This document shows, in pieces, positions 10,604 through 58,719 of a stretch of DNA of 64,000 bases (its first letter is position 1; each line of letters starts with the position of its first letter). Below the pieces are notes generated by a model. The model was given only the letters and a program-made list of their open reading frames with translations, made no database searches and was not told where the DNA came from. The translations under genes were made by a program, and so were the position numbers. Source of the stretch: Ceratodon purpureus (taxonomy: Eukaryota; Streptophyta; Bryopsida; Pseudoditrichales; Ditrichaceae); NCBI GenBank assembly GCA_014871385.1, contig CM026433.1, positions 6,149,585 through 6,213,584 on the forward strand. The letters run 5' to 3'.

Positions 10604-11594
10604 TATGAACACTCCGCACGATACGTGAGCCCTTTCGCCCAGGTACGGACGCTGGCCTTGCAAGCTCCACCTTCGTCTGATGAAGCCGACCCGGGATGAT
10701 CACCTTTGCGAAAGCCTGCAAATATACATAGTCTAGTTCATTTACGTTGAATATCAAACAACCAAGTGATCAAACGTCTGTTGGTACAGAATAAACTCTA
10801 TCACAAAGACGTATATATCATGAAACGCCAGACATACTTTGCTACAGACAAGCATCAAGGAACTAGCTAGCACGGCAGGAGCAGTACTCGAAATGCCCCA
10901 GACTGAAAACCGCATACCTAAGATCTGTTTCTTCGAGGATTTACTCAGCTGGGTCAATACATCGGAAGAAAAAGGCTCTAAGCTCATGAGTCGAGCGCAA
11001 CCGCTGTTCCCAATCTGTCCCAAAATGTCTGCACAAAACCTTCCTGCCCTTTGCCGACGACGTTACCGGGTGTCCAACGCGCATCTAGTCGGGATTTAGT
11101 CGGGATTTAGTCTGCTTGTAGGAAGCCTGGTAAACAGTGGACCCAATCTTCCTGGTTACTCACTCCTTCCGGTTGCAGTTGGCCACCCACAAAATCTTTG
11201 TGGATATTCCATAAAGCAACTCTAAGCTGCCGAAATTCGATTCGCCATCCGCGTCGGAAGAATAAAACAGCTGTGAAACTTATCGTCGGAAGGCAATTGT
11301 TACGACCGACAATTTTGTCTGCTGTCACTTATTGTTACTCAAATATCCCAACCCACCAGTCGGTAGTCACTATGATGCAAACGAAGCATAGTGTAGCGAT
11401 TTTTTGATGTGGCCTCCCAGGTAATTCCCTCAATGACATTGTCGGCCACAACATAGTATAACTAAGTCACGCTAGTGCCCTTCGAAAAATATTTTGGAAC
11501 AGGACGGAGAACCATCAAGTGTGGTATTTATTAACTTGCTAGGTTCGGCGTCTCGGATTGTTCCAGACGAGCAGGTCGCTCCTCCTCCATACGT
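10604..11594. promoter_or_regulatory. Divergent upstream region between GIL1-like and HSPA12-like genes
   Basis: On the minus strand a non-coding exon 10600-10715 (acceptor TTTGCAG at 10716) precedes the split start. An earlier leader exon may end at a donor near 10917 (ATCTTAG|GTATG). The remainder up to 11594 separates two divergently transcribed genes. The direct duplicate GTCGGGATTTA at about 11088/11098 is the only local repeat noticed. Confidence 0.45.
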
Positions 11595-13741
11595 GTGATG
11601 TTTAGTCAAATTACGGACGAGCCTCTGCTTGGTCAAGTTTCTCCAGTACACATCATGGGTAGTTTTCTCACTCCCAAGAGTTCCAAACTCTTGATGAGTT
11701 CTCCAGAGGCAGATGTGGTGGTGAGTATAGACTTCGGGACGACCTTCTCCGGCTGCGCGTACGCGACAAGATTAAATCCTTCCCAAGTGTTCTCACCCTT
11801 TCTGTGGCCGGATACTGATGGTCAGTATCCTAAGACCAAGTCTGAACTGTATTACTCCAGGGATGCCAAGGGGGAGCTCGTGTACAAGAGCTGGGGGGCC
11901 ACGGCTCTGGTGGATTTTACTCAAGCTGCGTCTGCATCTTCCGGCGAGTTGATCCGTGAGTTCAAACTCCATCTTGCGCCCAGTTCTCACTATGAAGAGC
12001 CACCTACTCCCCTGCCGGCTGGTTTGACAATCGACACTGTGATCATAGACTACTTGCGAGAGATTTCTAGATTTTACATCGAACAGCTGCGAGAGACGTT
12101 CGGAAGCCAGTTCAGTATGCAAGATGTGCAGTGGTGTTTGACAGTTCCTGCCATTTGGGACGACGGTGCCAAGCAACTCATGCAGTCCTATGCAGAAGCG
12201 GCGGGGATGGTTCAAACGTGGAACTCTGACGGATCAACCAGTGAGGGTAGCCCGTATCCACTCATTATAGTTTTGGAACCGGAGGCCGCAGCTGTGTGCA
12301 GTCTTACCCATTTCAATCAACTTAAGTTCGACAAAGGAGACAAGTTTATGACTGCCGACCTCGGCGGGGGAACTGTCGATATCGTCGTCCACGAGAAGGT
12401 CTGGCAGAGCACCAACGACGAAACAAATCTTGAGGTAGCTCCTTCATCATTTCCTTCGAAACAATGCTTAGTATCTGATGGCTGGACATTAGATTCATTT
12501 GCTAATAACATTTAAAATCTCCCTGCTGCGCCATCTGAATATATCTAAAGTACTGAACTTAGCAAAAGTTCTCCGTCGATATGTGTAAGGACGCAATTGG
12601 TTTTTTGATCCATATGTAGATGAGGGAAGTAACCAAGAGCTCAGGCGGACTCTGCGGGGCAACCTATGTCGACAGACAATTCCTCCGCCATCTTCAGGAA
12701 CGAATTCCCTGCCTTCGATCTTTTGCGGAGGAACATCCAAAGGAGATGATCCAAATCCTAAAGTGGTGGGACAGTATCAAGATTCACTTCAACGGGACTT
12801 TGTCTCAGTGGTGGTCCACACCGACTAATCTGGCGGAAGCTTGGAGGCTCCACAACGGAAGAACAGGTCGCCCTGATCCTGCACATGGCTATGGCCATGT
12901 GGAGTTCACCAAGGAGGATTTAATCAGCATCTTTGAGCCTGTGGTGAAGGATGTCATTCAACTTATAGACGATGCACTTCAACCATTCGCTACCGGCGAG
13001 GTGAAGACAATCATGGCCGTCGGGGGCTTCTCTGGAAACCCGTACTTGAAGAAGAGACTGCGAGAGACTTTCATACCACGCCATGTGAAAGAAATCGTGG
13101 TCCCTCCCAATCCAGGCGCTGCGATTTTTGAAGGCGCCGTAATGTTGGGAATCGCACATAAAGACCTGATTACATCCCGAGTGTCCAGGAAGACTTATGG
13201 TCAAGCGATATCCAGAAAATGGAAGAGGGACGATCCAGAAGAACTTCAATTCATGGATGACGACGGAATTCTCAAGTGCAACGACGTCTTCCAGACCTTC
13301 GTTCGGAATGGAGAGGAGGTGCTCAGCGGCGATTCGATAACCAAGGTACTCACTCCATTACACCACCACGCAACAACCATGACATTCAGTATCTACAGCT
13401 CGGAAGCAACCGAAAAGCCCAAATACACAACAGATCCAGGGATGGTGTTGGAGAGCCAGTTCGAGGTGGACATCTCCTCAGGACTGCACCTGGACAAAGA
13501 CAGGATGACGGCGGTGACCATGTACTTCGGCCGGACCAGCATCCAGGTAACTGCCAAGGGCTTGAACTTCGAGGCCAGCGGCGGAGCAGACAAGGCCATC
13601 CCTGTGGCCGTCAAACCGGTTCGCCCCTCCATGAGTTCGTGTAATGCCAGACCACTCAAGTCACCGATGACAGATGATTTGGAGGAAACCATGTCCAGGA
13701 TGCGAATCATGTCACTTCCTCGCGCCTTTGAATCGTTTTGA
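11595..13741 (+). CDS. HSPA12-like HSP70-superfamily ATPase
   Basis: Divergent HSP70/actin-fold ATPase of the HSPA12 type, found in animals, fungi, algae and some lower plants. Two exons: 11595-12434 and 12620-13741, with intron GAG|gtagct to tatgtag|ATG in phase 0, giving 653 residues. The intron is needed, because the open frames stop inside it. Phosphate-1 motif VSIDFGTTFSGCAYA at about 43-57; phosphate-2 motif FMTADLGGGTVDIVVHE at about 251-267; connecting segment SSGGLCGATYVDRQF at about 287-301, typical of HSPA12; adenosine motif IMAVGGFSGNPYLKKRL at about 411-427. No EEVD tail, and the substrate-binding part is short and unlike canonical Hsp70, so chaperone activity should not be assumed. 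No signal peptide. Alternative starts at Met 21 or Met 34 would leave the ATPase domain intact. Convergent with the carbonic anhydrase gene. Confidence 0.88.
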
Positions 13742-17040: not shown

Positions 17041-17650
17041 GTGAGTGGAATGGAATCTAGAAGATGTGAGTTTGGTGTTGAAGTGAGAGTGCAGGTTGTT
17101 GGATGGATGGACAGAAGTTTTGAGGTTGTTGGCAAGTTAGTGGAACAAAATGTCGACCTTGAACAACCCTTCCAAAGCCCTAAAAGTAATTGACTCGTTT
17201 TAAAACCGGTAGTTTGCAAGCCCATCCGCACTCAATGCCTAGGTTAAGTGTTTTTGAGTTCCGAGAGACTTTGGGCGCCTTCACAGATTAGGGTTACAAA
17301 TGGTGCAGAGTGTGTCCGCGATTTATATATTAGGACCCCCGATTTAATGCTTTTGGAGCTCCACACTTTTGGAATGTGTGTAACATGTTTTGGTTCTAAG
17401 GTAGAGGTGCCTATTTTGGATGGAATAAGTAGATTTTTGTATGAGGAAATAAGACATGGTCATGAAAATGACTTAGGCCTGTTGTGATAAGGAATAGTAG
17501 TATTTGAAATAGAGTTCAATCCAAGATATTTCATCATTTTGAAAGTTGAATTGAATAAGTTATGAATTGTTGATGTATAGAATAAAAGTTGCAAAAATGT
17601 GAATTGTAGAGATGTTAAAAATGGATTTGATAATCTAATGTAACCAATAC

Positions 17651-18748
17651 TTAACTCCTAAAGCATTTTGCCATAAAATCCCAAATTCTGCCTCAATTCT
17701 GCTCTGTTTTAGTTCAAGGTAGAATTATGCAAATTTGAACATATTTTAAAGAATCTAACCGTAGGATCTAGTACCTAACTTGTACATGTATGTGTACACA
17801 AAATTTTAGATTGTAACTCTTGACCGTTTGGAAGATCGTAAGATTTAAACTCGAGTGAAAAGTTTTTTTTTGGTACTCTTTAGCAGGGACAATCACCCTT
17901 TGGAGAGTGAAACAGCCAATTTTTTGAGATTGTGTGGTTGGAGGCTCTTCAGTTTTGGATTCTAAAGTGAGTTGGAAGTATGCTCAAAAAAATTGAAGAC
18001 AATACAACACACAGAAGCATTGGAAAACCACATTTCCAATGACGGGAGTCAAATGAAATGCATATACACTAGCTCTTTTTCCACACTACAAATGCCTGAG
18101 AAGATCATCTATTTTTTGAAATCCGAACAGTGTATACATGCAGTTGTATGGAAAAGAAATTGTAGATGAAAGAAATCCAAAAAATAAATAAATCCAAAAT
18201 AGATATGAATTTTACAGCATATAGTGTGGTTTAGGAGGAGAAAATAGCTAGTGAAGGAAAAATGGGTAACGAAGGTCACCCAATCACTGTTGATCTGTCT
18301 GCAAGTTTTTATTAAACTTGGAATTTTGACTCAGTATATCTCAAGATCCGTACGGTCAAAAATTACAAAACTTTGAAAGTAGATCAACTAGATGGCTCTG
18401 AACAAGATCTTACGGTTGGAATTTTCAAAATCAAGTTTTTTAAAAATTTGTTAAACAATTTCAGAAAAGATCATGAGGAAGTCACTATAGACTGTCATAG
18501 ATTTGGCACACCACTCCCATCGACCACAAAACTGCCCTAGCTGCCTTGAATTGAATTTTGATCTTTAAACACCAATTATTTCTTAACTACTGGCCCGATG
18601 GAAGTAAAATTTGGTCTTGTTGAAAAGATATGACAATTTCCCATGATGTGCCAAAGTTACAGCCGCATCTGATAAAATTTGACTCATAGGTAGCCTAATT
18701 GGACCCTAAATCATACCAAAACTATTGAGTTGATGCTTTAGGGGTTAA
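17651..18748 (+). mobile_element. TTAA element A (about 1.09 kb, piggyBac-like ends)
   Basis: Flanked by TTAA on both sides (17651-17654 and 18745-18748). Ends: CTCCTAAAGC on the left and GCTTTAGGGG on the right, inverted. The unoccupied target is seen at 25513-25516: both loci share ACCAATAC-TTAA-GAATCAAAATTG, with element A between two TTAAs here. No ORF long enough for a transposase. It lies inverted relative to element B, 78 bp away. Confidence 0.8.
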
Positions 18749-18826
18749 GAATCAAAATTGAAACTTACAATAAATATAGATGTAGGTTCTATCACAACTT
18801 TTCAATATGTGGGGCATTTTTTTGGA

Positions 18827-19857
18827 TTAACCCCTAAAGTATCAACTCAACAGTTTTGGTATGATTTAGGGTCCGGTCAGGCTCCCTATGAGTCAAATTT
18901 TATCGGATGTGGCTGTAACTTTGGCACAGCATGGGAAATTGTCATATCTTTCTAGCAAGACCAAATTTTACTTCCATTGGGCCCGTAGTTAAGAAATAAT
19001 TGGTGTTTAAAGATCAAAATTCAATTCAGGGCAGCTCGGGCAGGTTTGTGGCCGATGGGAGTGGTGTACCAAATCTGTGAAAGTCTACAGTGACTTCTAA
19101 ATGATCCTTTCTGAAATTGTTTCATAATTATTTTTTAAATTTGATTTTGAAAAATCCAACCGTAGGATCTTGTTCAGAGCCATCCAATTAGTCTATGTAC
19201 CAAGTTTTGTAAACTTTGACCGTACGGATCTTGAGATATATTTAGTCAAAGTTTCAAGTTTTATAAAAACTGTCAAGACAGATCAACAGTGATTGGGTCA
19301 CCTTCATCACCCATTTTCCCTTCACCATTTTCTCCTCCTAAACCACAGTAAATGCTGTAAAATTCATATCTATTTTGGCTTTATTTATTTTTTGGATTTC
19401 TTTCCTCTACAATTTCTTTTCCACACAAATGCATGTATACACCGTTCGGATTCCCAAAAATTGATGATCTTCTTAGGCATTTGTAGTGTGGAAAAAGAGC
19501 TAGTGTATATGCATTTCATTTGACTCCCGTCACTAGAAATGTGGTTTTTCAATGCTTTTGTGTGCCTCCACCCATGCGATCTTCAAAAATGGACTCTTTT
19601 ACTCTCCGAAGTCTGGTTGTCCCTGCCGGGCAGGGCCAAAAAAAACTTTTTACTCAAGTTCAAACATTATGATCTTCCAAACGGTGAAGAGTTACAGTCT
19701 AAAATTTTGTGTACACATACATGTACAAATTAGGTACTCGATCCTACGGTTAGATTCTCCCAAATACATTTAAATTTGCATAATTCTACTTTGAACTAAA
19801 ACAGGGCAGAATTGAGGCAGAATTTGGGATTTTATGGCCAAATACTTTAGGGGTTAA
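18827..19857 (-). mobile_element. TTAA element B, inverted partner of A
   Basis: Flanked by TTAA (18827-18830 and 19854-19857). Ends CCCCTAAAGTATC and ATACTTTAGGGG are inverted repeats. By eye about 90 percent identical to element A in reverse orientation over its whole length. The sequence corresponding to its target in R copy 2 reads TTAG at 25595-25598 inside matching flanks. Together A and B form arms of more than 1 kb around a 78-bp spacer. Confidence 0.78.
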
Positions 19858-19945
19858 GAGTTTCACCTTCTTGATTCTTTGTACATTTGTAAACTTTATG
19901 GGGCATGGGTTTTTAGAGAGGGTATTTTACCACCCTTTGAATTTT

Positions 19946-20875
19946 TTAACCCCTAAAAATCCAGGAAAGCTGAAATGGGTTTTTGCTGTTTTGGGCAGCC
20001 AAGATGAAGGGGTTAAAATTCATAATTTTGCCTAAGATTTTTACTGGATGCTCCCTATAGTGCAAAGTGTATGTGGTAAAATTTTCAAAGCCAAATTCCA
20101 ATTTTAAGACCTTCATCGAGAAATTTTAGGTTTTAGGTCCAAAACGGGCAGCTTAAAATTAGGGTTTTTTCAAAAAAAAATTCGTGAAATATTTTTATAA
20201 CCAAACCACCACTCAAATTCCAAAGAGACCCAAGTCAAAAAATCAACCAATTTTACAAGGGCAGCCTCCAAAAATTACAAAGACAAGCTTCAAATTTTTG
20301 AATTATTTCTTTCAAAATTCGTCAAAATTTGAGATTTTGAAATTTTTCAAAAATAATTTCGCCCAAAAATAAAAAATGTATAAAGGCACCTACCTAACCA
20401 CCGTTTAGATTTTTCTAAAACCAAGTATACGTAACGTCATACATGTTTTACGATATCAACGTTTTTAGACCCGCTTCTAGAAAATAATTTTTATGAAGGT
20501 TCTAAGAAAATAATAAGTCTCTAAAACTTTGCATGGAGGTACCCAACTTGATTACCTACATGGAAAAAAATATGAGCAAAATGTTTGCGATAATGAACAT
20601 CAAGTCTTCATTTTCACCATTTACCCTATGTCGTTCAGTTAATACCCAAAAAAACTTTTGCTGCAACTTTGAACATTATAATCTCAAAAATGGTAAACAT
20701 CCAACGGTTGAAAATTTCATCAGTACTTCTAAAGAGAGTAAAGTACAAGATCTTACGGTTTGATGTCTAAAAAAAAGAAAAAAAACTGGTCCAAACCGTC
20801 ATTCTCACAAAGCGGTCAAAAATGACAGTTTTGGAACTTGGAGCTTCCAAAAACGGCTGGATTTTTAGGGGTTAA
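19946..20875 (+). mobile_element. TTAA element C
   Basis: TTAA at 19946-19949 and 20872-20875; ends CCCCTAAAAATCC and GGATTTTTAGGGG form a 13-bp perfect inverted repeat. Length between TTAAs 922 bp. Internal sequence is the same family as D, E and I (for example GGGCAGCC.AGATGAAGGGGTTAAAA near the left end). Non-coding. Confidence 0.78.
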
Positions 20876-21804
20876 CCCCTAAAGGTTCTGGAAATCCAAA
20901 ATGGCTCTCAGCTGTTTCGGGCAGCCTAGATGAAGGGGTTAAAAGTAATATTTTTGCCTAAGAATTTTACTGGATGCTCCTTATACCGCAAAGTGTATGT
21001 GGTAAAATTTTCAAAGCCAAATTTCACTTTTAGAACCTTCATCTAGAAATTTTAGGTTTCAAGTCCAAAACGGGCAGTTTAAAATTAGGTTTTTTTAGAA
21101 TTGTTTTTTTGGAAATGTGTTCATAACCAATTCACTACTTAAAATCCAAAGTGGCCTAAGTCAAAAAGCTTACCAATTTTACAAGGGCAGCCTCCAAAAA
21201 TCACAGATACAACCTTCACGGTTTTGGTAATTTTACAATTTTTTCTTTCAAAATTTGTCAAAATTTGAGATTTAGGATTTTTTCAAATTTTTTTTTTCGA
21301 AAATTCAAAAACTCATGGAAGTAACTTTTTACCGTTTACTTTTTTAAAAAACCAAAAGCATTTCACGTCATTTAAGTTTTACCAGATTGTGGTTTTTGTA
21401 CCTTCTTCTCGAAAATAATTTGCATGAAGGCCAAAAAAGTGTAATGAGACTCTAAAATTTTGCATGGAGGTGCCCAACTTAGTTACCTACATGGAAAAAA
21501 ATATGAGCAAAATGTTTGAGGTAACAATAATCAAGTCTCCCTTGGCACCATTTAGAGTATGTCTTTTGCGCAAAGCCAAAAAAAAAAACTGTAAACTTTG
21601 AACGTTATAATCTCACAAATGGTAAAGATCCAGCCCTTGAAATTTATCATGGTATTAGTGCACGTAGCAAGGTTTAAGATCTTACGGTTGGATGTATCAA
21701 AAAGATAAAAAATTAAAAATCATATTTCAACTTCTATAAGGTTGTCAAAAATCACAGTTTCTGGTTTTGGAGGCCCAAAAACGGCTTGAACCTTTAGGGG
21801 TTAA
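20872..21804 (+). mobile_element. TTAA element D, joined to C through one shared TTAA
   Basis: TTAA at 20872-20875 (shared with C) and 21801-21804; ends CCCCTAAAGGTTC and GAACCTTTAGGGG, a 13-bp perfect inverted repeat. 925 bp between TTAAs, exactly the same as element E. The shared TTAA means one element inserted into the TTAA flank of the other. Confidence 0.8.
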
Positions 21805-22877
21805 GTTGTCTTTAATATTCTTTCTTTTAAAGTGTTTGCCTATTTTGATTTAGATGGCATATTTTGATTACATGTCACCGACTATTTTTAATTTTTCCAA
21901 GTATATGCTAATATCACCCACCTCAGTTGAAAATCTACATAACATGTCACCTTATAATAAAATATTTTATATAAGGGGATATAACAAGTTCAAGGAAGCC
22001 TCAATACCAAAAAAATGTGTCTTTTAACAAGTGGATCTAAATAAAAGATGCACAACTTTTGTCTATTTTTTGATATCGACATTTTTGACAGATATCTTGT
22101 GAAAATGAATGATGTATTTACATCATAAACAAATCACTATGCCACGATAATAATAAAGCTAAACAAATCACTATGCAACGATTATACTAATGCTATTGAG
22201 TTCTTTCTCCTCTGCAAGTATAAAAACCTACAAATTAATTTAGTTTGTATCACAAGGTGATCTGGATTTGGAATACCAGGACTAGAAGCTATTGGCCATG
22301 TGAAAATCGTGAGCTAGCATCCTTGCGATCCCAGGTTCAAGTCTGCTTGTCCACGATTCTCATATGCCAATTGATTCAAATTTTAATATTACATTAGTTT
22401 TTATGATAAAGTCGTGTCTTTTTACAAAAAGACCTGAATAAAAGATCGATAATTGACGCTATTGTATCCACACAAAGAATAATAGATCTTTTGTAATGTA
22501 GAATGATGTCTATGCATCATAAACAAATCACTATGCCATGAAGATACTAGTGTTCTTGTGACCTTGTCTTCTTTTATTACTATGAGTGGATTAACCTACA
22601 AATGTACTTTTTATGTATCACTCGTCATCTAGGAAGTTACAATTCAAATGTCGAATCATTAGAAAAGGTGGGTTGTTGGACTAGCATATATGAGGTCTTA
22701 GTTTCAAGGCCTAGTACCTCGTTCTTATGAGCTTGTAAATTTTGGGCCGGGAACCATCTCTTCCCAGTGATTCGGCATCATCTGCAACATTATATATCCT
22801 TCCCCAACACGATCATCAAACATTGACTTGTCAAATATTTGTATTCCATCGTTTTTTAGAGATTGCTAAGTAGTGTA

Positions 22878-24869: not shown

Positions 24870-26700
24870 TTGGAATGGAATCTGGAAGATGGGAGTTCGG
24901 TGTTCGAAGTGAAAGTGCAGGTTCTTGGATGGATGGACAGAAGCTTGGAGGTGGTTTAGGGGAACAAAATGTCGACCTTGGACATTCCTTCCAAAGCTCC
25001 AAAAGTAATTGAGTGGTTTTAAACCGGTAGTTTGCGAGCCCATCCGTGCTCAACGCCTAGGTTATCTCAGGGTTTTTATTTTCCGAGGTCAAAAGAACTT
25101 GACTATCCTGTAATTTGCACAGCGGAGAGAGGTAGGGTGGTCTCAAAGATTAGGGTTACAAATGGTTTAGAGTGTGTCGTCGCTTTATATACTAGGACCC
25201 TCGGTTTAATGCTTTTTCATCTACACACTTTTGAGATAGGTGTATCATATTTTGGTTCCGACATAGAGGTACCTATTTTGGATGGAATAAGTAGATTCTT
25301 GTATCAGAGAACAAGGCATGGTCATCAAAATGAGTGGGACATGTTATGATAAGGAGTGGTAGCATTGGAAATGGAGTTCAATTCAAAAGATTTCATCATT
25401 TTGAAAGTTGATTTGAATAAGTTATAAGTTGTTGATGTATAGAATAAAAGTTGCAAAAATGTGAATGGTAGAGATGTTAAAAATGGATTTGGTATTCTCA
25501 TGTAACCAATACTTAAGAATCAAAATTGAAAGTTGTAATAAATATAGATATAGGTCCTGTCACAACTTTTCATTATTTATGGCAATTTTTAGAGTTAGGA
25601 GTTTCATCTTCTTGACTCTTTGCACATTTGTAAACTTTATGGGGCATAGATTTTTAGAGAGGGTATTTAACCACGCTTTGAATTTTGTGAGTTTCCTTTG
25701 GTATTTTTTGATTCAAAGTGTTTGCATGTTTTAATTGCGATGGCATGTTTTTATTGTATGCCACCGACTATTTTCAGTTTTACCAAGTAAATTCTAAAAT
25801 AATTGACCTTAGTTGAAAATCTACATTATATGTCACCTTGTAATAAAAAAATTTAATGTAAGGGGATAGAACAAGTTGAATGAAGCCTTATTACCAAAAA
25901 AAATCATATCTTTTTACAAGAGGATCTGAATAAAAAAAATGCAGAAGTTTGGTTTATTTTTTGATATCGACATTTTTGACAAAGTATATTCTTCAATAAT
26001 TGTCGCTATTGTATTAATATAAGGAATAGTAGATATCTTGTGATAAAGAATGATGTATATAAATCATACACAAATCACTATGCGACGATAATACTAATGT
26101 TCTTGTGTTCTTTCTCCACTGTGAGTATATAAACCTACAAATAAATTTATTGTGTATCACATGGGTGATCTAGGATTTGGAATGCCAAGCCTAAAAGCTC
26201 TTGCTATGTCAGGGAATTGATCTAGCTTACATGACGTCCCGGGTTCAAGTCTGCTTGCTCGAGACTCTGATATCGCAAGTGATTCTGGGTTTCCAGACTG
26301 AATCAGCAGACAGTGACTTGTCTAATTTTTATATTCCATCAGTTTTTATAATAAAATCGTGTCTTTTTACAAAAAGACCAGAAGAAAAGATGCACAAGTT
26401 TTGTCTACTTAATCGTACAGGCATTTTTGATAAAAAAAATATATTCCATAAATTGTTGCTTTTATATCTACACAAGGAAAAGTAGATCTTTTCTAACATA
26501 GAATGATGTATCTATATCATAAACAAATCACTATGCCATAATAATACAAACGTTCTTGTCTTGTTTTGTAACTATCAATATATGAACCTACAAATATATT
26601 TTTTATGTATCACTCGTGATCCGGGAAGTAACAATTCAAACCTGGAATCATTAGGAAGGGTGGGTTGTTGAACTAGTAATTATGAGGTGACATGTCTGGA
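24870..26700 (+). repeat. Dispersed repeat R, copy 2 (unoccupied reference copy)
   Basis: Direct copy of the R sequence at 17.0-22.7 kb without elements A-D; it supplies the empty target for A (TTAA at 25513) and near-empty target for B. Another single TTAA at 26014-26017 (GTATTAATAT) corresponds to the target of element E. Contains two GATGTA..ATC palindrome segments (about 26048 and 26501) and a GGGTTCAAGTCTGCTTG B-box-like motif near 26240. Confidence 0.7.
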
Positions 26701-31079: not shown

Positions 31080-33300
31080 CTAATTATTTGAGATATTACA
31101 AATATACTTTTATTTATTCTTCTAACTATAAACTCACAGTCCAATTCATAAGTCTTGGGAAAGGATATATAAAGTTGCAGATGATGCCGAATCACTCGAA
31201 AAGAGGTGGTTCCCTGCCGAACATTTACAAGGTCATATGAACGAGGTACTAGGCCTTGAAACTTAGGCCTCATATATGCTAGTCCAACAACCCACCTTTC
31301 TAGGTTTGAATTGTTACTTCTCGGATCACGAGTGATACATAAAAAATATATTTGTAGGTTTATATACTCATAGTTACAAAACAAGACAAGAACATTAGTA
31401 TTATCATGGCATAGTGATTTGTTTATGATGTAAATACATCATTCTATGTTACAAAAGATCTACTTTTCCTTGTGTGGATAGAATAGCGACAATTTATGGA
31501 AAATATTTTTTTAACAAAAATGTCAGGTTCATTCAATAATGGTGGCATGTTTTTATCTTTTGGAATATTGGATCTCGATAAACATTCTACTCAGACTCAA
31601 TCATGTAACATAACTTGTGCATCTTTTATTTTGGTCTTTTTGTAAAAAGATACATTTTGTAAAAAGACATGATTTTATAATAAAAACTGATGGAATATAA
31701 AAATTTGACAAGTCAATATCTAATGATCCTATTTGGGAAGGATATATAAAGTTGTAGATCAGGCCTAGTGCTGAATCACTTGCAAGATTAGAATCGTGGG
31801 CAAGTAAAAATATGACAAAGTTGCAGATCACGCTAAACACCAAATCAGTTGCTGTATCAGAAATCTCGAGCAAGCAGACTTGAACCAGAGACCTCATGTA
31901 TTCTAGATCAAGACTCTGATATCGCAAGAGCTTCTAGGCTTGGCATTCCAAATCCCATATCACCTTATGATACATAGTAAATTTATTTGTAGGTTCATAT
32001 ATTCACAGAGGAGGAAGAACACAAGAGCATTGGTATTATCGTAGCTTAATGATGTGTTTATGATGTAAATACATCATTCTTTATCACAAGATATCTACTT
32101 TTCCTTGTATTAACCCCTAAATTTCCTTGTGTTTTTGAGAACTTGAATCCTCAAAACTGCGATTTTTTACCGTTGTGCCATCCCGAGGATATGAAACAAA
32201 TTTTTGAACTTTTTCTGGAATTTCAACTGTAAGATCTTGTACCTAGTCCAATTTGGAAGAACTGATCCAAATTTCAATTCTTGGATGTTTTTGATTAGTG
32301 AGATCTTAGTGTTCAAAGTTTGAGCACACATTTTTTTGGGCCTTGGTGGAGAGGCATGGTGCAAATGGGCTAAAGGGAGACTTGATGATTATTACTTCAA
32401 GTTTTTTGGTCACATTTTTTTCCATGTAGCTAACTAGGTTAGGTATGCTCATGCAAAATTTTTAGGGACTCAAAAAGCTTTTTAGACCTTCATGCAAATT
32501 ATTTTCTATAAGAAGGTATAAAATTGACAAAATAGTAAAACATGCATTACAAAAACAATTTGTGAGCTAAATAAAAAGTGAACGGTGAAAAGGTACCTTT
32601 ATAAATTTGTGATTTTCAGAAAAAAAAAAAATTAAATTCAAAAATCCCGAATTTTGACAAATTTTTGAAGGAAAAATTCAAAAATTACTAAAAACTTTGA
32701 AGCTTGTCTTTGTAAGTTTTGGAGGCTGCCCTTGTAAAATTGGTAAACTTTTTGACTTGGGTCACTATGGAATTTGAGTTGTGATTTGGTTATGAACATA
32801 TTTCAATTTTTGTTTTTTTAAAAAGACCTAATTTTAGACTGCCCGTTTTGGACTTGAAACCTAAAATTTCTAGATGAAGGTTCTAAAATTGGAATTTGGC
32901 TTCAAAATTTTTACGACATAGACCTTACCGTAAAGGGAACACTCAGTAAATCTTAAAAAAATATATTACTTTTAATCCCCCCATCTAGGCTGCCAGGGAT
33001 TGCAAAAAACTATTTTGGGTTTTAAGGATAGTTAGGGGTTAATACAACATCGACAATTTATAGAAAATATTTTTTAACAAAAATGTCAAGTTCATTCAAT
33101 AAAGGTGGCATGTTTTTATCTTTTGGAAAAATGAATCTTCATAATCATTCTACTCAGATTCAATTAAGTAGACAAAACCTATGCATCTTTTATTTGGGTT
33201 TTTTTAAAAAAGACACAATTTTATTATAAAAACTAAAGGATTATAAAAATTTGACAAGTCAATGCCTAATGATCATGTTTGGGAAGGTTACGCCAAACGC
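31080..33300 (-). repeat. Dispersed repeat R, copy 3 (reverse orientation), containing element E
   Basis: Reads opposite to copies 1 and 2. Landmarks: CAGACTTGAACCAGAGACCTCATG near 31874, GTTTATGATGTAAATACATCATTCT near 31416 and 32056, and ATCTACTTTTCCTTGTATTAA at the insertion point of element E. Confidence 0.68.
32110..33042 (-). mobile_element. TTAA element E, with two unoccupied sister sites
   Basis: TTAA at 32110-32113 and 33039-33042, 925 bp between. Ends CCCCTAAATTTCC and GATAGTTAGGGG. Flanks read CTTGTA-TTAA-[element]-TTAA-TACAACA. The same R position without the element reads CTTGTATTAATACAATAA at 33569-33572 and TTGTATTAATACAATAA at 34475-34478. Homologous to D in reverse orientation along its length. 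Non-coding. Confidence 0.88.
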
Positions 33301-34990
33301 CAAATCACTTCCAACATCAACATCGTGGGCAAGTAGACTTGAACCTGAGACCTCAAGTATATTAGCTCACCATGTTGACTTTGCAAGAGCTTCTAGGTTT
33401 GGCATTCCTAATCCCAGATCACTTTGTGATACACAGCAATTTTATTTGTAGGTTTATATACTCATAGTGGAGGAAGAACATAAGACCATTTGTATTATAG
33501 TTGCATAGTGATTTGTTTATGATGTAAATACATCATTCTTTATCACAAGTTATCTACTTTTCCTTGTATTAATACAATAATAACAATTATTGAAGTATAT
33601 TCGTTGTCAAAAATGTTGATATCAAAAAATAGACAAAACTTGTGCATTTTTTAAATTCAGATTCATTTGTAAAAAGACACAATTTTTTGGTAATGAGGCT
33701 TAGTTGAACTTGTTCTATCCCCTTATATAAAATCTTTTATTACAAGGTCACATATAATGTAGATTTTTAACTGAGTTTGTTATATTAACTTTACTCGGTA
33801 CAATTGGATCTCCACATATATTATACTCAGACTCAATCAGGTAGACAAAACTTGTGTATCTTCCGATGAGGGTTTGTATTGTGTTCTTTCTTTGCAATGA
33901 ATTTCTCTTCATTTGCTTAAAAAAATTAAAAATAAAAATAAAAAAATAAAAAAAAAAAAAAAAAAAAAAAAACTTGTGTATCTTTTATTGTGTAGACACA
34001 ATTGCCACAATTTATGGAAAATATTTTTAATCAAAACACTCAAGATCATTCAACAAAGGTTGAATGTTTTTCAAAAAATTGCAGATCATGCCGGAGGCAA
34101 AGACATGACATTACTATAATAACTGATGGAATATAAAAATTTGACAAGTCAATGTCTAATATTGTGTTTGAGAAGGATATATAAAGTTGCAAATTACACC
34201 GGAGACCAAATCATTTGCAATATTAGAATTGTGGGCAAGCGAACTTGAAGCTGGGACGTCATGTCTACTAGCCCACAATTTCGACATTGCAAGAGCTTCT
34301 TGGCCTGGCATTCCAAATCCCAGATCACCTTATGATACACACTAAATTTAATTGTAGGTTCATATAGTCACAGTGGAGGAAGAACACAAGAGCATTAGTA
34401 TTATCGTCGCTTAATGATGTGTTTATGATGTAAATACATCATTCTTTATCACAAGATATCTACTTTTTGTTGTATTAATACAATAACAACAATTATTCAA
34501 GAATGTTCTTTGTCAAAAATGTCAATTTCAAAGAATAGACAAAACTTGTGCATTTTTTTTATTCACAACCACTTGTAAAAAGACACATTTTTTTAGTAAT
34601 GAGGCTTCGCTGAAATTGTTCTATTCCCTCACATAAAATCTTTTATTACAAGGTGACGTATAATGTAAATTCTTAACTGAGGTGGGTTATGTTAGCATAT
34701 ACTTGGTAAAATTGAAAATAGTTAGTGACATACAATCAAAATATGCCATCTAAATCAAAACAAGCAAACACTTTAAATCAAGTAATATTAAAAGCAACTC
34801 ACAAAATTCAAAGCGTTGAAAACAAAATCAAAAAGACATCGATGTAATTTTAATAAATATGCGGTTGAAACACTTTTCTTACAATACTCTTCAGAATCAA
34901 GAGCCATGTACTTTGAGTTATTACAAATATACTTTTATTTATTCCGGTAACTATAAACTCACAGTCCAATTCATAAGTCTTTTTTAAAAG
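33300..34990 (-). repeat. Dispersed repeat R, copy 4, partly duplicated within itself
   Basis: Two successive R bodies (palindrome landmarks near 33520 and 34421; B-box-like TTGAACCTGAGACCTCAAG near 33340 and a weaker one near 34246). Holds two empty TTAA targets equivalent to the site of element E. Contains a poly-A tract (33948-33972). 34700-34990 matches the end of the R copies near 49.5 and 56 kb. Confidence 0.68.
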
Positions 34991-37900
34991 TATAATCTTT
35001 AGGTATATAATTTTTATCTATACTTAATTTTGAGTTCCTTTAAGTTGCTACTAGATTGTAATAAAATGAAGTTATCGGTTGCGCTTTTAAATTCAATCCT
35101 TCTAACAATCTTATCTTATTTTTGTATATATCTTATTTTTATCTTATCTTATTTCATCATCAAACTAGAGCTTCAACAAATGTCTACAAGACATTCACCA
35201 TCTCCATTGGTGGAAAACAATATAATTTACCAAAGCATTAACATGTTCAAATTCTTTTATCATTATATGTATAGGGCCATATGTGGAGTGGAGTCTCCAA
35301 ATTAGACATGCTTTTATCAAAAAGTTCCAAATGCATTTAGAACATGTCATTTTCACCAATCATGATATAAATGATGATTACTATGTTTTGTTGTAATTTG
35401 TTAACATACACAATGATGATTACATTTGATTGACTAGTAAAATTAAAAAAATGCTTATAAACCCATGCATTGAGCTTTGGTGCTTATAGAATTTTTGATA
35501 GGCATATGCTATTTTGAAAAATATTGTGAATTTGTTTTACGATGCTTTGTAACAAGAAAAATGATTTTCTAAAAACAAAATCACAGATATTCATCATGTC
35601 TAATATAACTATAGTAATGCCCAACTAAACTCTCATATTTTGATGGAAACTTGGAATATAATTTAAAAATGTTTAATTGTCCAACTGGACAATAAAACTA
35701 TCTCTCATTACTAAGCATGTTCTTTAATACACTCTAGTTTCATTTCTACACTATCCACAAGACTTCTCAATTAAGATCCTTGTCCAACTTCACTTACCCT
35801 TCACTATACACTAAAGTGAAATACATTGTCTTCCTAGTAGAGTCTAGACATGATAGTGAAAAGTCAATTGGATAAAAATACAATATTGTAAACCATCCAA
35901 TTTTACCCCTAAAGGACTGAGAGACCCAAAATGGATCTTTAGTAATTTTGGGCAGATAACTATGATTACAATAAACATTTTATTTTTCTATATTTTCTTG
36001 TGAAAATAAAGATTTGTAAAATCGTCTAATCAAAATTTGAGAAAGTTATAAAGTTTCTAAGATTTCACCTTGAATTTGGGCAACAAGGGTAGGGCTAAAA
36101 ATTTCTCAAATCGTTTTTTAATTTAAAAAACAATTAGAATCATATTTTGCAAGGTTTTGTGAATGTGGGAAGATTTAATTCATTGCATTCTGATAAGTCA
36201 AGCAAATGATATAAAAAGTCATTTTTTGTGGTCACCTGCCAAAAATATTTACAAAAACAAACTTTGAGGAATCATCTTGAATTCAATTTTAACAAATTTT
36301 AAATAATAAAAAATAAATAAAAAATTACAATTGATTCATACAATACTCTCACAGATGGGATTAACATGATTGTATTTTATGTCAACAAAATTAGTGATTT
36401 AGGTTTAACTTTCATTTTATACCTCTATCCTCTTTATATTCTTTTAAAAGGCAAGTATTGAGGTTTTTTATTTTGAATTTTTTTTGGTGAATCTTCATAG
36501 CATTTATCTATTACAATACCAATTTCTTCAATTTAGAATACATAGCCATATTTTTTGAAAGTTATATACACTTAAATTTCAGCTTCAGCAAAGATTGAAA
36601 ATTACTTGTTCTTGGTGTTTAGGGGCTAAGATTCCACAATATATTTTGTTCCTAACTCTAAATTTTGCAGAATAAGTTTTTTACTATGTTAGCTATAGGA
36701 TCCTATGGTTGAATTTATTGGAAAATGTCACAATGTCAAAAAATTAGCTTGTTTTACCTAGTGGTATTAAATAATAGTTTTGAGGTGAAAAGAGTCTTAG
36801 TCCTTTAGGGGTTAAAGTTGTGGCTCATTTCTAAAATTTGAAAATGTATACAATAGTTATAGAAATCATACATATATATTTTTTGGATTCATTAATTCCA
36901 ATTTAAAATGAAGATTAAAAAAAATAACAAAAAAACATACAACCACTTTCATTCCCTCAACTATACATCTCTAGAATCTTTTGTTCTTTTTTCATAGAAA
37001 TATGATAGAGCATTTAGATTGCTTATTTTACAAAAAAATAATAATTTCATATAGTATGCAAAGTCTCTACTTTTGTTGTTGCTACTGCTATTGCAAATGA
37101 ATGATGTTGTATCTATATATGTCTGACTTTCAAGAACATCATAAAGAAGGCTGCTAAACAACAAACTTGACAATTCCTCTTTTGGTTAAATGCAGAAAAC
37201 AATAACATCGACAAAATGGACCATCCAATGAACTACCATCTTTAAGAAAATGGTTTCAGCCAAAAGAAATTTCTATCCCACAAATCAATGAAGTTTTGTA
37301 CATTGAAGTACATATCACTTCAACAAGAATGGACAACTTCAAAGCAAACTTAACTAGTAAGTATATACAATAGCCTCAACAAGGTCAATTTGATTTTGGT
37401 CAAACTTGTGGTTACTAAATATAGTTTGCATGAAGTTAGATTTTTTTTGGAGATCGTGGATTTTCCCAAATTTATATGCCTTTCTAGCTATCAAAGACAC
37501 TGGGCGTTTGTATTTGAATTTCAACATACCTTCCTGTGAAAAGTCAAGTGATTCTTTAGGTTCTATAGGTCTTATGAGGGTAAAGAGTGCACAGATATAT
37601 TCCTAACCTAGGAACAAATATTTGAAGGGCCTAAAGTCAAATTTACTTTTGAATTTGATTTTTTTGGCTCACAAAACGCTTCAAACCCATTTTGCAACAA
37701 AAGAAAAAATATTTTTTCCAACTTTGAACATTACGATCTCACATACGGTAAGGAGTTTGAATCTAGGATTTGGGTACATGTAAATGTACAAGCAAGGTAA
37801 TAGATCCTATAGTTATCCCCAAAATACATCAAAACTTGAAAACTTTCACCTTGTATTGAAAGAGTCTAGTTTTGAGGGTTTTTGGCAGTTTTGAAGCTTT

Positions 37901-47699: not shown

Positions 47700-49600
47700 C
47701 AGTGATCATGTTTGGAAAGTTGCAAATGACGCTGAATTACTCAGAGATATCTCATCTAGCAAAAATGCAAGCCCGAGGTTCAAGCTTAAAGAGGACTCCT
47801 GGATGGATGGAGCTTGAACCTGAGACCCCATGTATGCCAAGCGAGACTCTTCCGAGTAATTCTAGGTCTGGCTTTCCCAATTTCAGATCAATTTCTGATG
47901 CATAGCAAAAATATTTGTAGGTTTATATACTCTTTCTGGAAGAACAACGCATCACCATTAGTATTACAGTGGCATGGTAATTTGTTTATGATGTAAATAT
48001 GTCATTCTATATTACAAAATATCTACTTTTCCTTGTGTGAACATAAGAGTGACAATTAATGGAAAATATCTTTTGTCAGAAATGTCTGTATCAAAAAGTA
48101 GACAAAACTTGTACATCTTTTATTCAGGTCCTCTTCTAAAAAGACACAATTTTTTGGTGATGAAGCTTCCTTGAACATGGTCTATTTCCTTACATAAAAT
48201 CTTTTATCACAAGGTGACATACAATGTGGATTATAATGTAGATTTTTAATTCAAATGGGTTATATTAGCATTTATTGGTAAAATTGAAAATAGCGGGTGA
48301 AGTGTAATCAAAATCTACAACTTAAAATCAAAATCAAGCAAACACCTTAAATAAATAAATAAAACTATGGTAAAATACCCTCTCTAAAAACCAATGCCCC
48401 ATAATGTTACAAATATGCAAAAAGTCAAGGAGGTGAAATTCTTATTTCAAAACAATGCCACGCAGAATGAAAAGTATATGAAAGTGCGAGGTCTAAAACA
48501 AGCATTTTTGTCTTCAGAGGCTCTAACCAAGCCTTAAATTCTAAACAAAATCAAAGGACAGAACAAGTTAATTCCTATATGCACGAGAAACAGAAATGTG
48601 GTCGCATTCTACCTTGGGTAGGCTGCTACAATGTCAAAAATAACCATTAAGCTTTGGAATTTTTAGTGTAGATTCTTTAAGTCATTATATACACGTCGAG
48701 CTTTGTTTCATAAAATTTTAATATGTAATGCAAGAGTTATAAAGGATTGAAGGTTTTAAATCTCAACAAGGGTAGCCAAAAAAGAATTCATATTTTTTCT
48801 AAAAAACTAAATAATTATATCATTATTTTCTAGGATTTTATATTTACATAAAAAGCTTCAAAACTTTCCAATCCAATAAATAAGGTACAAGATATGAAAA
48901 GTCTTAATATTTTCGGGCAATTTGGTCAACTATTCATCAAAAATAACTCTAAGAACTGATCTTGAAGTTGATTATAACAATTTTCCAAAAATTAAAATTA
49001 ATTTTTTTTTTGTTTACTTGATACATGATTTTCACCGTTGGAATCGATATAATCTATTTTTACGTGGATATAGTTAGCAATTTAGTTTTTCTTTCTATTC
49101 TACGTCATACTCTAATTTACATATGGTTTGAAGATGAAAAACAAGGTTCAATCTTTGAATTTTTTTGTGGAGACTCTCTAGTCATTTTATAAATAGAATC
49201 TGCAGTTTTCCATTCTAAAATTGTAAAACAAAATTTTTGAAAATTCATTGTTGAGTTTTTTGAAGGATTGAAATAAACTTGTTTTTGAAGTTTAAACATT
49301 ACGATCTTGCGATTGATTTTGTTTATGACTCTAAACATTTGGAATAAAATATTTTGATAAGTTAGTTATAAGACCTTACGGTTGAAATTACAAAAGAATG
49401 TTATTATATATTGAAAAAATAGCTTGCTTTACAAGAAGGTATTGAAAAGTAATTTTGAATTTGAAAAAAACAATTTTGAATTTGAAATCATCAAGAGCAT
49501 TTAGAGGTTAACATGCGGATGATATTTTAATAAATAAATGGATGAAACAATTTTCCTACACTACTATTTGGAATCAAAAAACTGAGTATTTGCAATGCCT
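47700..49600 (-). repeat. Dispersed repeat R, copy 5, containing element H
   Basis: Landmarks GCTTGAACCTGAGACCCCATG near 47812, GTTTATGATGTAAATATGTCATTCT near 47984, and ATCTACTTTTCCTTGTG. Collinear with copy 6 at 55.1-56.1 kb except for element H. Its far end runs into the leader of the DOHH gene. Confidence 0.68.
48568..49512. mobile_element. TTAA element H, with an unoccupied sister site
   Basis: TTAA at 48568-48571 and 49509-49512, 937 bp between. Ends are worn (TTCCTATATGC and GCATTTAGAGG). Flanks read GACAGAACAAG-TTAA-[element]-TTAA-CATGCGGATGATATTTTAAT. The empty site at 55991-55994 reads GACATAACTCG-TTAA-CACATGGATGAAATTTTAAT. Older than C-E, judging by end decay. Confidence 0.78.
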
Positions 49601-53478: not shown

Positions 53479-55080
53479 ATTGTTTCTTTCAAAAGTGCAT
53501 AGTTGTACTACTGGCGGGATTGACGACCATAATTGACCAATGTTACTCCTGAATTGAAATGAGCACAGGCTCCACATGACGGGCACTTAGCCCTGCTCTA
53601 CCAGGCTAGGTGGTCCAACCCCATGAAGCACCATACTCATTGCTTTGTTCCAAATACCAAAAAGTATATTCAAACAGTAACTGGTAACATTACATTGTGC
53701 GCAACCTGCAAGTCTCGTGTGGGCCATGACGGGAGGGCGCCCTTCCATTCAGATGTTCAAATCACTCATGCGTCTCGAAATTTGTCATGGATTCAGATTT
53801 GGAGGTTGTGCAAGAACCTGGTCACTGCTCTGTATTTGAAGCAATGGCATTCTATGGACCGGTATTGGAACTGTGTATTATTTCCAGCCCCACCAACCCG
53901 ACAAAAGAGCCGTCCACTTTGATCGTATGTTGGTAATGATTGGACAATGGAGTAGTTTAGTTCAGTCCTTGGAAGTCCGTGCAGTGGCGCAAATCCTTGG
54001 CATGTGCATGTGTTCATGAAGCCCAGAGCTTAGACTCTTCACAAGGCGCTTCTTGTCCCACACGACCAAATTATAGACCTGCATCAAAATGCTTGAAAAA
54101 CATAGTTGCCTTACACATACTGTAGGTTACTAGCAACTTGGGCAGAAAATAATTATTTTCAGGTCTGCCTAAATTTTTTGGAAATTCTTGATTTTGTTTG
54201 CCTAACTTTGAGATATTGTTTGCCCGACTTTGAGATACTACTGCTCTATAATACTTTGAGAAAATTTACAATGTTCAACTTCGAGATACTATTTTGCAAA
54301 ATTCCCGAACCACTTTTTGTACTTTAATTAATTATTAGGCAAAACAGTGCCCTAGTTGTTAGTAACCTACCATATCTAACAATTCTATTATTCGTGAGTA
54401 ATATGAATGTGTTTTTCTATGCAAAAACTTAAAATTAGATATCATAATTTACTAATGATGATCATGTCTTCATTTGACCAAAACATATTTACTTTTCTAT
54501 AGTGAAGAATGATTTTTGATTGTTGTAATTTTAATAATCACTCCTTATGCATTTAATACTATATAGCTTTATCATTCTAAATACTGGGCATAGTACTTTG
54601 CATATTCATGAATTAATGTTTTTTTATTGACTTTTCATTACATGGATTATAAATACAAAAAAATCAAAATTATATAAAATTCTAATTTTGTTTTGATAAA
54701 AACCTATAGATAGAAAACATATTCAATAATTATGTCTAATTGAAACTTTTTTATCCCAGATGCAAAAAAATGCTCCTTATTATCACACAATAAGAGGAGA
54801 TTTTGTTGATTTTTTTCTTTACTTTTTTCCACTTGAAGAAAAAATAAAAACATTTTTTTTGATAGTATGGATTCAAGTTCCATTAGAAATTGCACTAACA
54901 AAAACATAGAAAGTCTATAACAAAATTTTAATTTCTCTTTTACAATTTTTTCACAATGTTATACTACTTTGCAATCTCTAAAATTGATGGACTACAAAAA
55001 TTTGACATGTTGATCGACTACAAAACAAGCATTTGACATATTGATGGACTACAAAACAAGCATTTGACATATTGATGGAC
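53479..55080. other. Gene-free AT-rich region
   Basis: No supported gene. ORFs at 53623-53922 and elsewhere have no recognisable content. 54.7-54.95 resembles the sequence next to the ICME duplicate (TATCACACAATAAGAGGAGATTTT, also near 47667). Confidence 0.4.
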
Positions 55081-56130
55081 TACAAAAATATGACAAGTTG
55101 ATGTTTCATGATCATGTTTGGGAAGGATATAGAAAGTTGCAGATGACAACGCCAAACGCCACCAAACGCCAAATCACTGAGGAGTGACGATCCTCGGCTA
55201 GCATACTTGAACCTGAGACCTCATATATACTAGTCCAGGATCCTACAGTCCCTAGCAATTTAGGGTTTGGGTTCTCAAATCCCAGATCAACTTGTGATGC
55301 ATAGTAAATATATTTATAGGTTTATATACTCATTCTAGACGAATAAGTTATGAGCATTAGTATTATTCAGGCATCAAGATTTGTTTATGATGTGCATACA
55401 TCATTCTTAGTTACATAATATCTACTTTTCCTTCTGTGTACATAAGAGCGACAATTAATGGAAAATAATATTTGTCAAAAATGTCTATATCAAAAGTAGA
55501 CAAAACTCGTGCATCTTTTATGTAGGTCCTCTTGTGAAAAGACACAATTGTTTTGGTAATGAAGCTTCCTTGAACTTAGTCTATTGTCTTACTTAAAATC
55601 TTTTATTACAAGGTGACATACAATGTAGATTATAATGTAGATTTTTAATAAATGTGGGTTACATTTGCATTTATTGGTAAATTTGAAAATTGCTGGTGAC
55701 ATGTAATCAAAATCTACCATCTAAAATCAAAATCAGGCAAACATTTTGAATCAAAAATGCCAAAGGCAGATTACAAAATTCAAAGCTTAGTAAAATAATC
55801 TCTCTAAAAATCCATGTCCCATAAAGTTTACAAATGTACAAAAAGTTTAGAAGGTGAAATTCTTGATCCAATAAAATGCCAAACACAATGAAAAGTGTAT
55901 GAAAGTGCCAAGTTAAAAACAAACACCTACGTTTCAAGAGGCTCTGATCCAAGCCTAAAATTCAAAACAAAACCAAAAAGACATAACTCGTTAACACATG
56001 GATGAAATTTTAATAAATAGAAAGATGAAACCTTTTTTCAACAATACTATATATTTGCAATGCATCTTCCCTAGAATGAAAGTCAATAAAAGAAGAAGAA
56101 ACACAGTGTAAAAGCAAAAGTATGAAAAGC
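55080..56130 (-). repeat. Dispersed repeat R, copy 6
   Basis: Landmarks ACTTGAACCTGAGACCTCATA near 55207, TTTGTTTATGATGTGCATACATCATT near 55382, and the empty TTAA target of element H at 55991-55994. Right end matches the DOHH upstream region. Preceded by a short tandem of GACATATTGATGGACTACAA (about 54985-55090, three to four copies). Confidence 0.68.
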
Positions 56131-57146: not shown

Positions 57147-57377
57147 TTAACCCCTAAAGGATCAAGCCGATTCTCGACCTTGAAAACCAAAAACTATGAT
57201 TTTGACAACCTTGTAGAAGTTGGAGTTTGAATATTATTCTCTTACTATTATGGTACATCCAACCGTAAGATCTTGAACCTAACTACCTGCACTGATACCA
57301 TGTCAAATTTCAACGGTTGGATCTTTACCATTTGTGAGATTATAACATTCAAAGTATACTTTTTCTTTTTCTTTTTT

Positions 57378-57425
<48 letters not shown>

Positions 57426-58129
57426 GGCTTTGTATGAAAGGCATACTCTAAATGGTGCCAAGGGAGACTTGATGATTGTCACTCCAAACATTTTGCTCAT
57501 ATTTTTTTCCATGTACATAACTAAGTTGGGCACCTCTATGCAAAATTTTAGAGTCTCATTACGCTTTTTTGGCCTTCATGCAAATTATTTTCCAGAAGGA
57601 GGTACAAAAACTACAATATGGTAAAACTTAAATAACGTTATATTTTTTTGGTTTTTTTAAAAAGTGAATGGTTAAAACCTGCGTTTATGAGTTTTCGAAT
57701 TATTGGAATAAAAAAATAAAAAAATTCCTAAATCCCAAATTTCGATAAATTTTGAAAGAAAAAATTGTAAAATTACCAAAAACTGTGAAGGTTTTTTTTG
57801 TAATTTTTGGAGGCTGCCCTTGTAAAATTGGTAAGCTTTTTGACATAGGCCACTTTGGATTTTGAGTAGTGAATTGGTTATGAACACAATCCCAAAAATT
57901 AAAATTGTAAAAAAGCTAATTTTAAACAGCCCATTTAGGACTAGAAACCTTAAAAATTCTAGATGAAGGTTCTAAAAGTGAAATTTGGCTTTGCAAATTT
58001 TATCACATACACAATATGGTATAGTGATCACCTAGTAAAATTCTTAGGCAAAAATACTTTTAACCCCCTCATTTAGGTTGCCCAAAACAGCCGATAGCCA
58101 TTTCGGATTTCCAGAACCTTTAGGGTTCA
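57147..58129 (-). mobile_element. TTAA element I, interrupted by a 45-base T run
   Basis: Left TTAA 57147-57150 with end CCCCTAAAGGATC; right end GAACCTTTAGGG followed by TTCA (58126-58129), a one-base decay of TTAA. Reverse-orientation relative of D over its full length (for example AAACCAAAAACTATGATTTT and GTAAAATTCTTAGGC). A T tract (57380-57424) lengthens it to 975 bp. No ORF of its own; the long Lys run read on the minus strand is the T tract. Confidence 0.75.
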
Positions 58130-58719
58130 AGTGAAAAAAAATAAAAATCTATAAAATAAAATTCTAGTTTTTATGAAGGAAAAAAGAAGTATTTTAGTAT
58201 ACTACTCGAAACCGTGAGAAAACTTTGATATTTTGTAGAGTGAACACTTTGTAGTCAAAGAAATTTAACATGGCTGCCTGAATTGCCCAAAAACAGAAAA
58301 TTTCACTTTGGGTACCATACATATTTTTTGAAATGCCTAAATGAAAAAAAAATAAATTAGATTCTATCAAAGTCCTTATAACGGCAAGTATTTACAAAAA
58401 AATTCAAAAAATCTTGGTTTAAATTGAAGTCACAGGTTCATGCCTAAATTCTATAAAAGCTCCCAACGGCCAATTTGTCCTTCATGGGTTAAATAATTAA
58501 GTACATATTTTGTTATAATTTTTTTTTTATCTTTAATATTCACAAGTAATATCCATGTATTCATTGTAATTTGTGTTGTCTATGGCTCATTGATTGTACT
58601 TCTTCTTTCTTTGTAACATTCACATATTGCCTACTACTCATTGATTATCAAGGATATTCACCATATACATTCTTCTTTTCATTATGTTGTTATTATTCAT
58701 CAATGGTCAACTTCTAAAA

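Follow-up and report, generated by a model that had tools for sequence, protein, structure and literature searches.

Eight short transposable elements lie in the 64,000-nucleotide stretch of the moss Ceratodon purpureus that we analysed (the window; positions 6149585-6213584 of contig C13 in an assembly of 362.5 Mb and 151 contigs). They almost certainly belong to the piggyBac superfamily, and are very probably non-autonomous cut-and-paste DNA transposons that were mobilised in trans by transposases of longer elements of the same genome with common ends and a common subterminal motif. We are less confident of this statement as a whole than of superfamily membership, since the window copies and the source elements gave no direct alignment.

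The elements (A, B, C, D, E, G, H and F; Table 1) are flanked by TTAA, some being decayed, and together make up 7,767 bp. Their termini read CCCCTAAA...TTTAGGGG, with the general form TTAA-CCCC(T/A)AA; the original prediction had described these ends, and the description holds in general, except in H, whose ends have decayed, and in F, where one end has. Counting TTAACCCCTAAA and its complement together, the window contains 10 exact occurrences, or 16 when one mismatch is allowed, compared with means of 0 and 0.45 over 20 shuffles. The elements fall into three subfamilies: A and B (83% identity), C, D, E and F (69-82%), and G and H (63% over 765 bp). C and D are arranged head-to-tail with a single TTAA (20872-20875) common to both, as if one element had entered the border TTAA of the other. 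No stop-to-stop frame of at least 120 codons in the open-frame listing overlaps any of them, no six-frame profile scan of the elements having been made. Plant telomere repeats read CCCTAAA, and the similarity of the end CCCCTAAA (for example, at 32114-32121) to this unit is probably coincidence.

A, B, the C+D pair, E and H all lie within copies of an unclassified host repeat of about 1.8 kb (17046-22696, 24871-26688, 31152-34822, 47813-48571 and 55073-55994), the first of which is split by A, B and C+D, with B inserted 78 bp past A in the same copy. We joined the flanks of each element at one TTAA and aligned the product across the join within the window. The joined flanks of E matched three sites that retain a single intact TTAA (120/120 bp on the left, 44-61 bp on the right), and the join was exact in all three, as had been claimed for 33569, 34475 and, in reverse, 26014; the range of 32110-34478 given with that claim has the correct start, but E itself ends at 33042 and the remainder covers two of its empty sites. 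The pairings proposed for A with 25513 and for H with 55991 were likewise exact to the base (alignments in Table 1), with the end of H corrected from 49512 to 49511.

Five more counterparts of E in the window lack the element and have target letters other than TTAA, giving eight in all. B has three element-free counterparts (TTAG, TCAA and ATAA at the target), and C+D has four paralogous counterparts lacking both elements (GTGA, GTAA, GTGA and TTA-); these document absence of the elements, not an intact target. G and F have no element-free counterpart within the window. Excision of piggyBac restores TTAA without a footprint, making an excision product and an unoccupied target look alike at any one site. 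It is nevertheless improbable that the empty sites are excision products: with eight E-less paralogous counterparts of E, sites that were never occupied are the simpler account, and the element is mobile under either view.

Since TTAACCCCTAAA itself contains TTAA, the target was tested separately with a TTAA-free pattern from one subfamily, CCCCTAAAGGTTCTGGAAAT, which is found at 198 places in the genome and at 0 in the control. We read 20 of the 198, all on the plus strand of contigs C1-C3 with the first two plus-strand places omitted. TTAA directly precedes 18 of the 20 copies (the others have ATAA and TTTA, one each), relative to a baseline of TTAA starting at 0.5% of window positions, and the base preceding it is variable (T 8, A 8, G 3, C 1; n=20). 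This bears on the possibility that the elements are PIF/Harbinger, Tc1/mariner or other transposable elements that duplicate TAA or TA and have slightly longer ends (ACCCCT or AACCCC). TTAA is palindromic around TA, and at a single site a TA duplication with ACCCC ends would look identical; here, however, the outer T and A are kept. The 3-bp TAA/TTA duplication rule of PIF/Harbinger, as given in an excerpt on Tourist miniature inverted-repeat transposable elements (MITEs), differs from the 4-bp TTAA that we observed, and the source elements described below carry a piggyBac transposase and not one of PIF/Harbinger or mariner. We consider this whole class of explanations very unlikely, and reject the PIF/Harbinger and mariner readings on termini, target letters and transposase. 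The earlier reading of TTAA as the target is supported.

The original prediction called for a source with the same ends, TTAA flanks and a DDE_Tnp_1_7 transposase, and we found two such elements end to end. L009 (5,337 bp) and L010 (5,871 bp) have TTAACCCCTAAA at both ends and TTAA flanks; their stop-to-stop frames of 1,023 and 1,050 codons contain DDE_Tnp_1_7 (PF13843) at 270 and 272 bits, respectively. In L010 no in-frame Met precedes codon 233, and translation may not extend over the upstream part in the form read. A genome search for PF13843 gave 116 scored matches from 998 first-look candidates, L009 and L010 included, and matches in 0 of 14 control genomes. Stop-free matches account for 93 of the 116 and those with one or two internal stops for 23, in a sample that leans to intact copies, only the best candidates having been scored.

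The nearest solved chains by phmmer were piggyBac of Trichoplusia ni (6x67, E-value 7e-28) and piggyBat of Myotis lucifugus (9c0f, 2.7e-27). A 600-residue structure model (mean predicted local distance difference test score (pLDDT) 80.6, predicted template modelling score (pTM) 0.73), built with an alignment of 20 of the 53 relatives found by protein search, was matched by Foldseek first to 9c0f (5.3e-26), second to 6x67 (6.1e-25) and then to Tn5, with template modelling scores for 9c0f and 6x67 of 0.56-0.58 by query and 0.68-0.72 by target. The three catalytic Asp residues (DDD), aligned to 6x67, are kept in all 20 best-scoring cores (four of them with stops replaced by X), and cysteine pairs are present in the transposase alignment consensus. 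The ends of T. ni piggyBac start with CCC, and the moss system agrees with it in these ends, the TTAA target, a DDE_Tnp_1_7-type core with three Asp, and fold; it differs in sequence (22% identity in the structure alignment), in a fourth end base of C, in its moss host and in the length of the open frames, the solved T. ni chain having 594 residues. piggyBat, the best structural match, is likewise from an animal and has 22-23% identity to the moss transposase. TTAA duplication, CCC-starting ends, DDE_Tnp_1_7 inside those ends and the three Asp occur together in the moss, as expected of the piggyBac-type family originally proposed.

The transposase of Kolobok elements differs from that of piggyBac, and L009 and L010 encode PF13843, nearest to piggyBac and piggyBat and not to Kolobok. 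According to PMC9587614, Kolobok also duplicates TTAA, but has 5'-RR...YY-3' termini where the window elements have 5'-CC...GG-3'; the frog Kolobok examples in the excerpts begin with AG, and the hosts named on the plant side in the PMC9587614 passage are algae. Kolobok identity is refuted for L009 and L010 by termini and transposase, and the chance that the elements at large are of Kolobok type is close to nil.

To relate the short elements to the long ones, we used a 17-bp motif, AAGATCYTACGGTTNGA, from which element orientation was also assigned, the end that bears it being taken as the 3' side of the element. Allowing three mismatches, it occurs 13 times within the eight elements and 0 times elsewhere in the window (0-2 in each of ten shuffles). 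We then took 38 elements, namely the 8 in the window, 28 further short ones, L009 and L010, and scored positions 95-130 bp inside each end: in 34 of the 38 the motif lies 102-125 bp inside exactly one end, pointing outward, compared with 0 in 20 shuffled sets. In L009 and L010 the motif accompanies the end that lies 3' of the transposase frame, and the window copies have the ends and subterminal motif of these two, as non-autonomous relatives would. The motif is a candidate transposase-binding site.

The same arrangement recurs among the 20 best-scoring transposase loci, which comprise L009 and L010, 12 loci read further downstream and six with an end-like site within 1.5 kb. In the 12, we read the 1-kb interval 1.2-2.2 kb beyond the domain. 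TTTAGGGGTTAA, with no more than one mismatch, is present in 11 of them (0-1 of 12 in shuffled pieces), placing the 3' end 1.5-2.0 kb beyond the transposase domain, and in 10 of these 11 the motif is 101-102 bp inside the end. Among the six, L060 ends exactly and shows the motif, with 2 mismatches, 103 bp further in. We propose that the long elements would produce a transposase that binds the ends of the short elements, excises them and joins them at TTAA elsewhere; binding to the motif, moving of the window copies, seamless excision and present movement are each steps that we infer.

Several observations weigh against this account. At E≤1e-8, L009 and L010 gave no direct alignment with any of the eight elements in the window. 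The motif is missing from the expected place in four of the 38 elements (L014, L015 and L016, of 229-249 bp, and L021), and A-type elements hold extra motif copies deeper inside. Among the transposase loci, L048 (= L064) has no end in the stretch read, and L059 (= L071) has an end and no motif; the ends of L046 and L054 contain 1 and 2 mismatches, respectively, with no motif in the stretch read; and in L041-L043, a second piggyBac lineage, the end is TTAACCCCCTAA-like, lies about 1.1 kb beyond the domain and is again unaccompanied by the motif. The C-terminal zinc-finger PF13842 is below the cut-off in L010 (E-value 0.0055) and none was reported in L009. Finally, the ends begin CCCCT, with C at the fourth base, where the CC[C/T]T motif that PMC2872659 calls general for piggyBac ends has T. 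PMC10813416 gives CCC as the conserved first three end bases and lists CACTA and CCCAT ends among piggyBacs; with such departures reported within the superfamily, we would not take the fourth base as defining.

The missing direct alignment is partly bridged by L012 (2,027 bp), which matches the L010 end over 208 bp at 79% and elements A, B, C, D, F and H over 110-288 bp at 62-70%. The link from window to source would accordingly run through ends, motif and bridging copies, and a simple origin of the window elements as deletion derivatives is disfavoured because none of them aligns directly to L009 or L010. The missing alignment also favours the alternative that the window copies were formerly moved by another, or a lost, piggyBac lineage of the moss and not by that of L009 and L010. 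The presence of several transposase lineages side by side and the decayed ends of H and F are in keeping with this; against it, a motif 102-125 bp inside one end is common to all eight window copies and the L009/L010 lineage, whereas L041-L043, L046 and L054 lack it in the stretch read. We judge this alternative rather unlikely and retain mobilisation by the L009/L010 lineage as the preferred reading.

The transposase copies themselves carry signs of constraint and of movement. Pairwise comparison of 16 stop-free cores gives 120 pairs; 17 of these have fewer than 1.5 synonymous substitutions per site (dS<1.5), and their median ratio of non-synonymous to synonymous substitution (dN/dS) is 0.09; by this measure related transposases are under purifying selection. 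Ratios are higher in the two closest pairs (0.66 at dS 0.017 and 0.36 at dS 0.08), as expected because the copies are young. The members of the pair at dS 0.017, on contigs C10 and C9, align over 4,008 bp with 98.5% identity; on the 3' side, where the ends were read, likeness stops at a TTAA and the flanks are unrelated, which at the level of sequence shows that a transposase-bearing copy moved recently.

One of the 53 relatives of the transposase is from a scallop (29%). We built a tree of 52 rows from 18 of the 20 moss cores (all but L045 and L055) and the 34 of 53 relatives with at least 440 residues. The moss rows, 18 in number, take six label changes on it, with a warning of long branches meeting; several transposase lineages appear to coexist in the moss. 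Synonymous divergence exceeding 1 among copies under selection, together with these lineages, may reflect long residence in the moss lineage. It is possible, with the odds somewhat against, that C. purpureus hosts an endogenous, long-resident and still active piggyBac in which a one-sided docking motif would define the cross-mobilisation of thousands of short elements.

Genome-wide (362 Mb), TTAACCCCTAAA occurs exactly 9,407 times, compared with 128 for the reversed-pattern control, corresponding to roughly 4,700 elements if each has two ends. The first 100 places, all on contig C1, form 36 consecutive inward-facing pairs: 28 span 229-2,027 bp (three of 229-249 bp, 19 of 823-934 bp, four of 1,075-1,094 bp, one of 1,364 bp and one of 2,027 bp) and 8 span at least 5,337 bp. 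We read all 28 shorter sequences and three of the 8 longer, L009, L010 and L011; the last, in which the two ends stand 6,981 bp apart, contains no large frame and was taken as the ends of two elements. The very short members L014-L016 have 12-bp ends as in the larger ones and no subterminal motif. In the 198-place listing, the D-type left end is scarce on contig C6 (110.5 Mb, which we take to be the size of the sex chromosome), with 10 places there and 59 on C1-C3 (80.8 Mb); C6 has 19 of the 116 PF13843 transposase matches.

A close parallel is the piggyBac-derived MITEs of Acropora corals (CMITEs; PMC2872659), which are also short gene-less TTAA elements with empty and occupied alleles, tandem arrays and internal sequence common to different families. 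They are about 100 bp long, in contrast to 229-249, 823-934 and 1,031-1,098 bp in the moss, and their tandems are ascribed to slippage, whereas C and D have one common TTAA. For plants, the abstract of PMC10813416 states that piggyBac has been isolated from them, excerpts of two reviews name PiggyBac among plant superfamilies, and a fern repeat table holds an automated PiggyBac count; these passages on land-plant piggyBac describe no source element. In one open-licence literature library, a scope that may not include the Ceratodon genome paper, we found no paper pairing piggyBac with Ceratodon; the sole one containing both 'Ceratodon purpureus' and 'piggyBac' means expression piggybacking. The family may be new; it would add to a known superfamily a member that is possibly still active and lives in an unusual host.

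Most work on piggyBac has been done in animals, in which it is a standard tool for transgenesis. A haploid moss that has such an abundant family, intact transposase frames included, would allow one to ask about its natural movement, about how a plant silences piggyBac, and about descent as opposed to transfer into plants. Plant genetics might also gain from it a native transposon that leaves no footprint and, if the system is indeed active, a native piggyBac platform in a land plant.

Table 1. Elements, subterminal motifs, empty target sites and an uninterrupted host-repeat copy in the window (window coordinates)
Feature	Coordinates	Strand	Remarks
Element A, non-autonomous	17651..18748	-	1,098 bp including both TTAAs; left end TTAACTCCTAAA (1 mismatch)
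Element B, non-autonomous	18827..19857	+	1,031 bp; 83% identity to A
Element C	19946..20875	+	930 bp; 12-bp ends perfect
Element D	20872..21804	+	933 bp; 12-bp ends perfect
Element E	32110..33042	-	933 bp including both TTAAs; opposite orientation to C and D; 72-73% identity to C and D
Element G	35902..36815	+	914 bp; left target changed to TTTA
Element H	48568..49511	+	944 bp; ends diverged: TTAATTCCTATA / TTAACCTCTAAA
Element F	57147..58130	-	984 bp; 82% identity to D; one end degenerate (TTTAGGGTTCAA)
Motif AAGATCYTACGGTTNGA in A	17754..17770	-	1 mismatch; 103 bp inside left end
Motif in B	19738..19754	+	2 mismatches; 103 bp inside right end
Motif in C	20747..20763	+	112 bp inside right end
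Motif in D	21676..21692	+	112 bp inside right end
Motif in E	32222..32238	-	2 mismatches; 112 bp inside left end
Motif in G	36697..36713	+	3 mismatches; 102 bp inside right end
Motif in H	49370..49386	+	2 mismatches; 125 bp inside right end
Motif in F	57258..57274	-	111 bp inside left end
Empty TTAA matching A	25513..25516		aligned 120 + 74 bp, 91%
Empty TTAA matching E	33569..33572		TTAA intact
Empty TTAA matching E	34475..34478		TTAA intact
Empty TTAA matching E	26014..26017	- (reverse)	TTAA intact
Empty TTAA matching H	55991..55994		aligned 120 + 120 bp, 74%
Uninterrupted host-repeat copy	24871..26688	+	

In the window as a whole we found 0 RNA families at the gathering threshold and 0 transfer RNAs. 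Two adjoining open frames at 11535-13741 (+) have an Hsp70-like appearance (HSPA12-like, in our own naming) and no Pfam match; the second has nine relatives, one of them fungal at 25%, one bearing PF00012 and no named plant among them. A 559-codon frame at 8650-10329 (-), whose only Pfam match is the plant GIL1/IRKI domain, below the family cut-off, is 99% identical to M758_12G075800 of Ceratodon purpureus, in agreement with the early assignment of this DNA to a plant genome.

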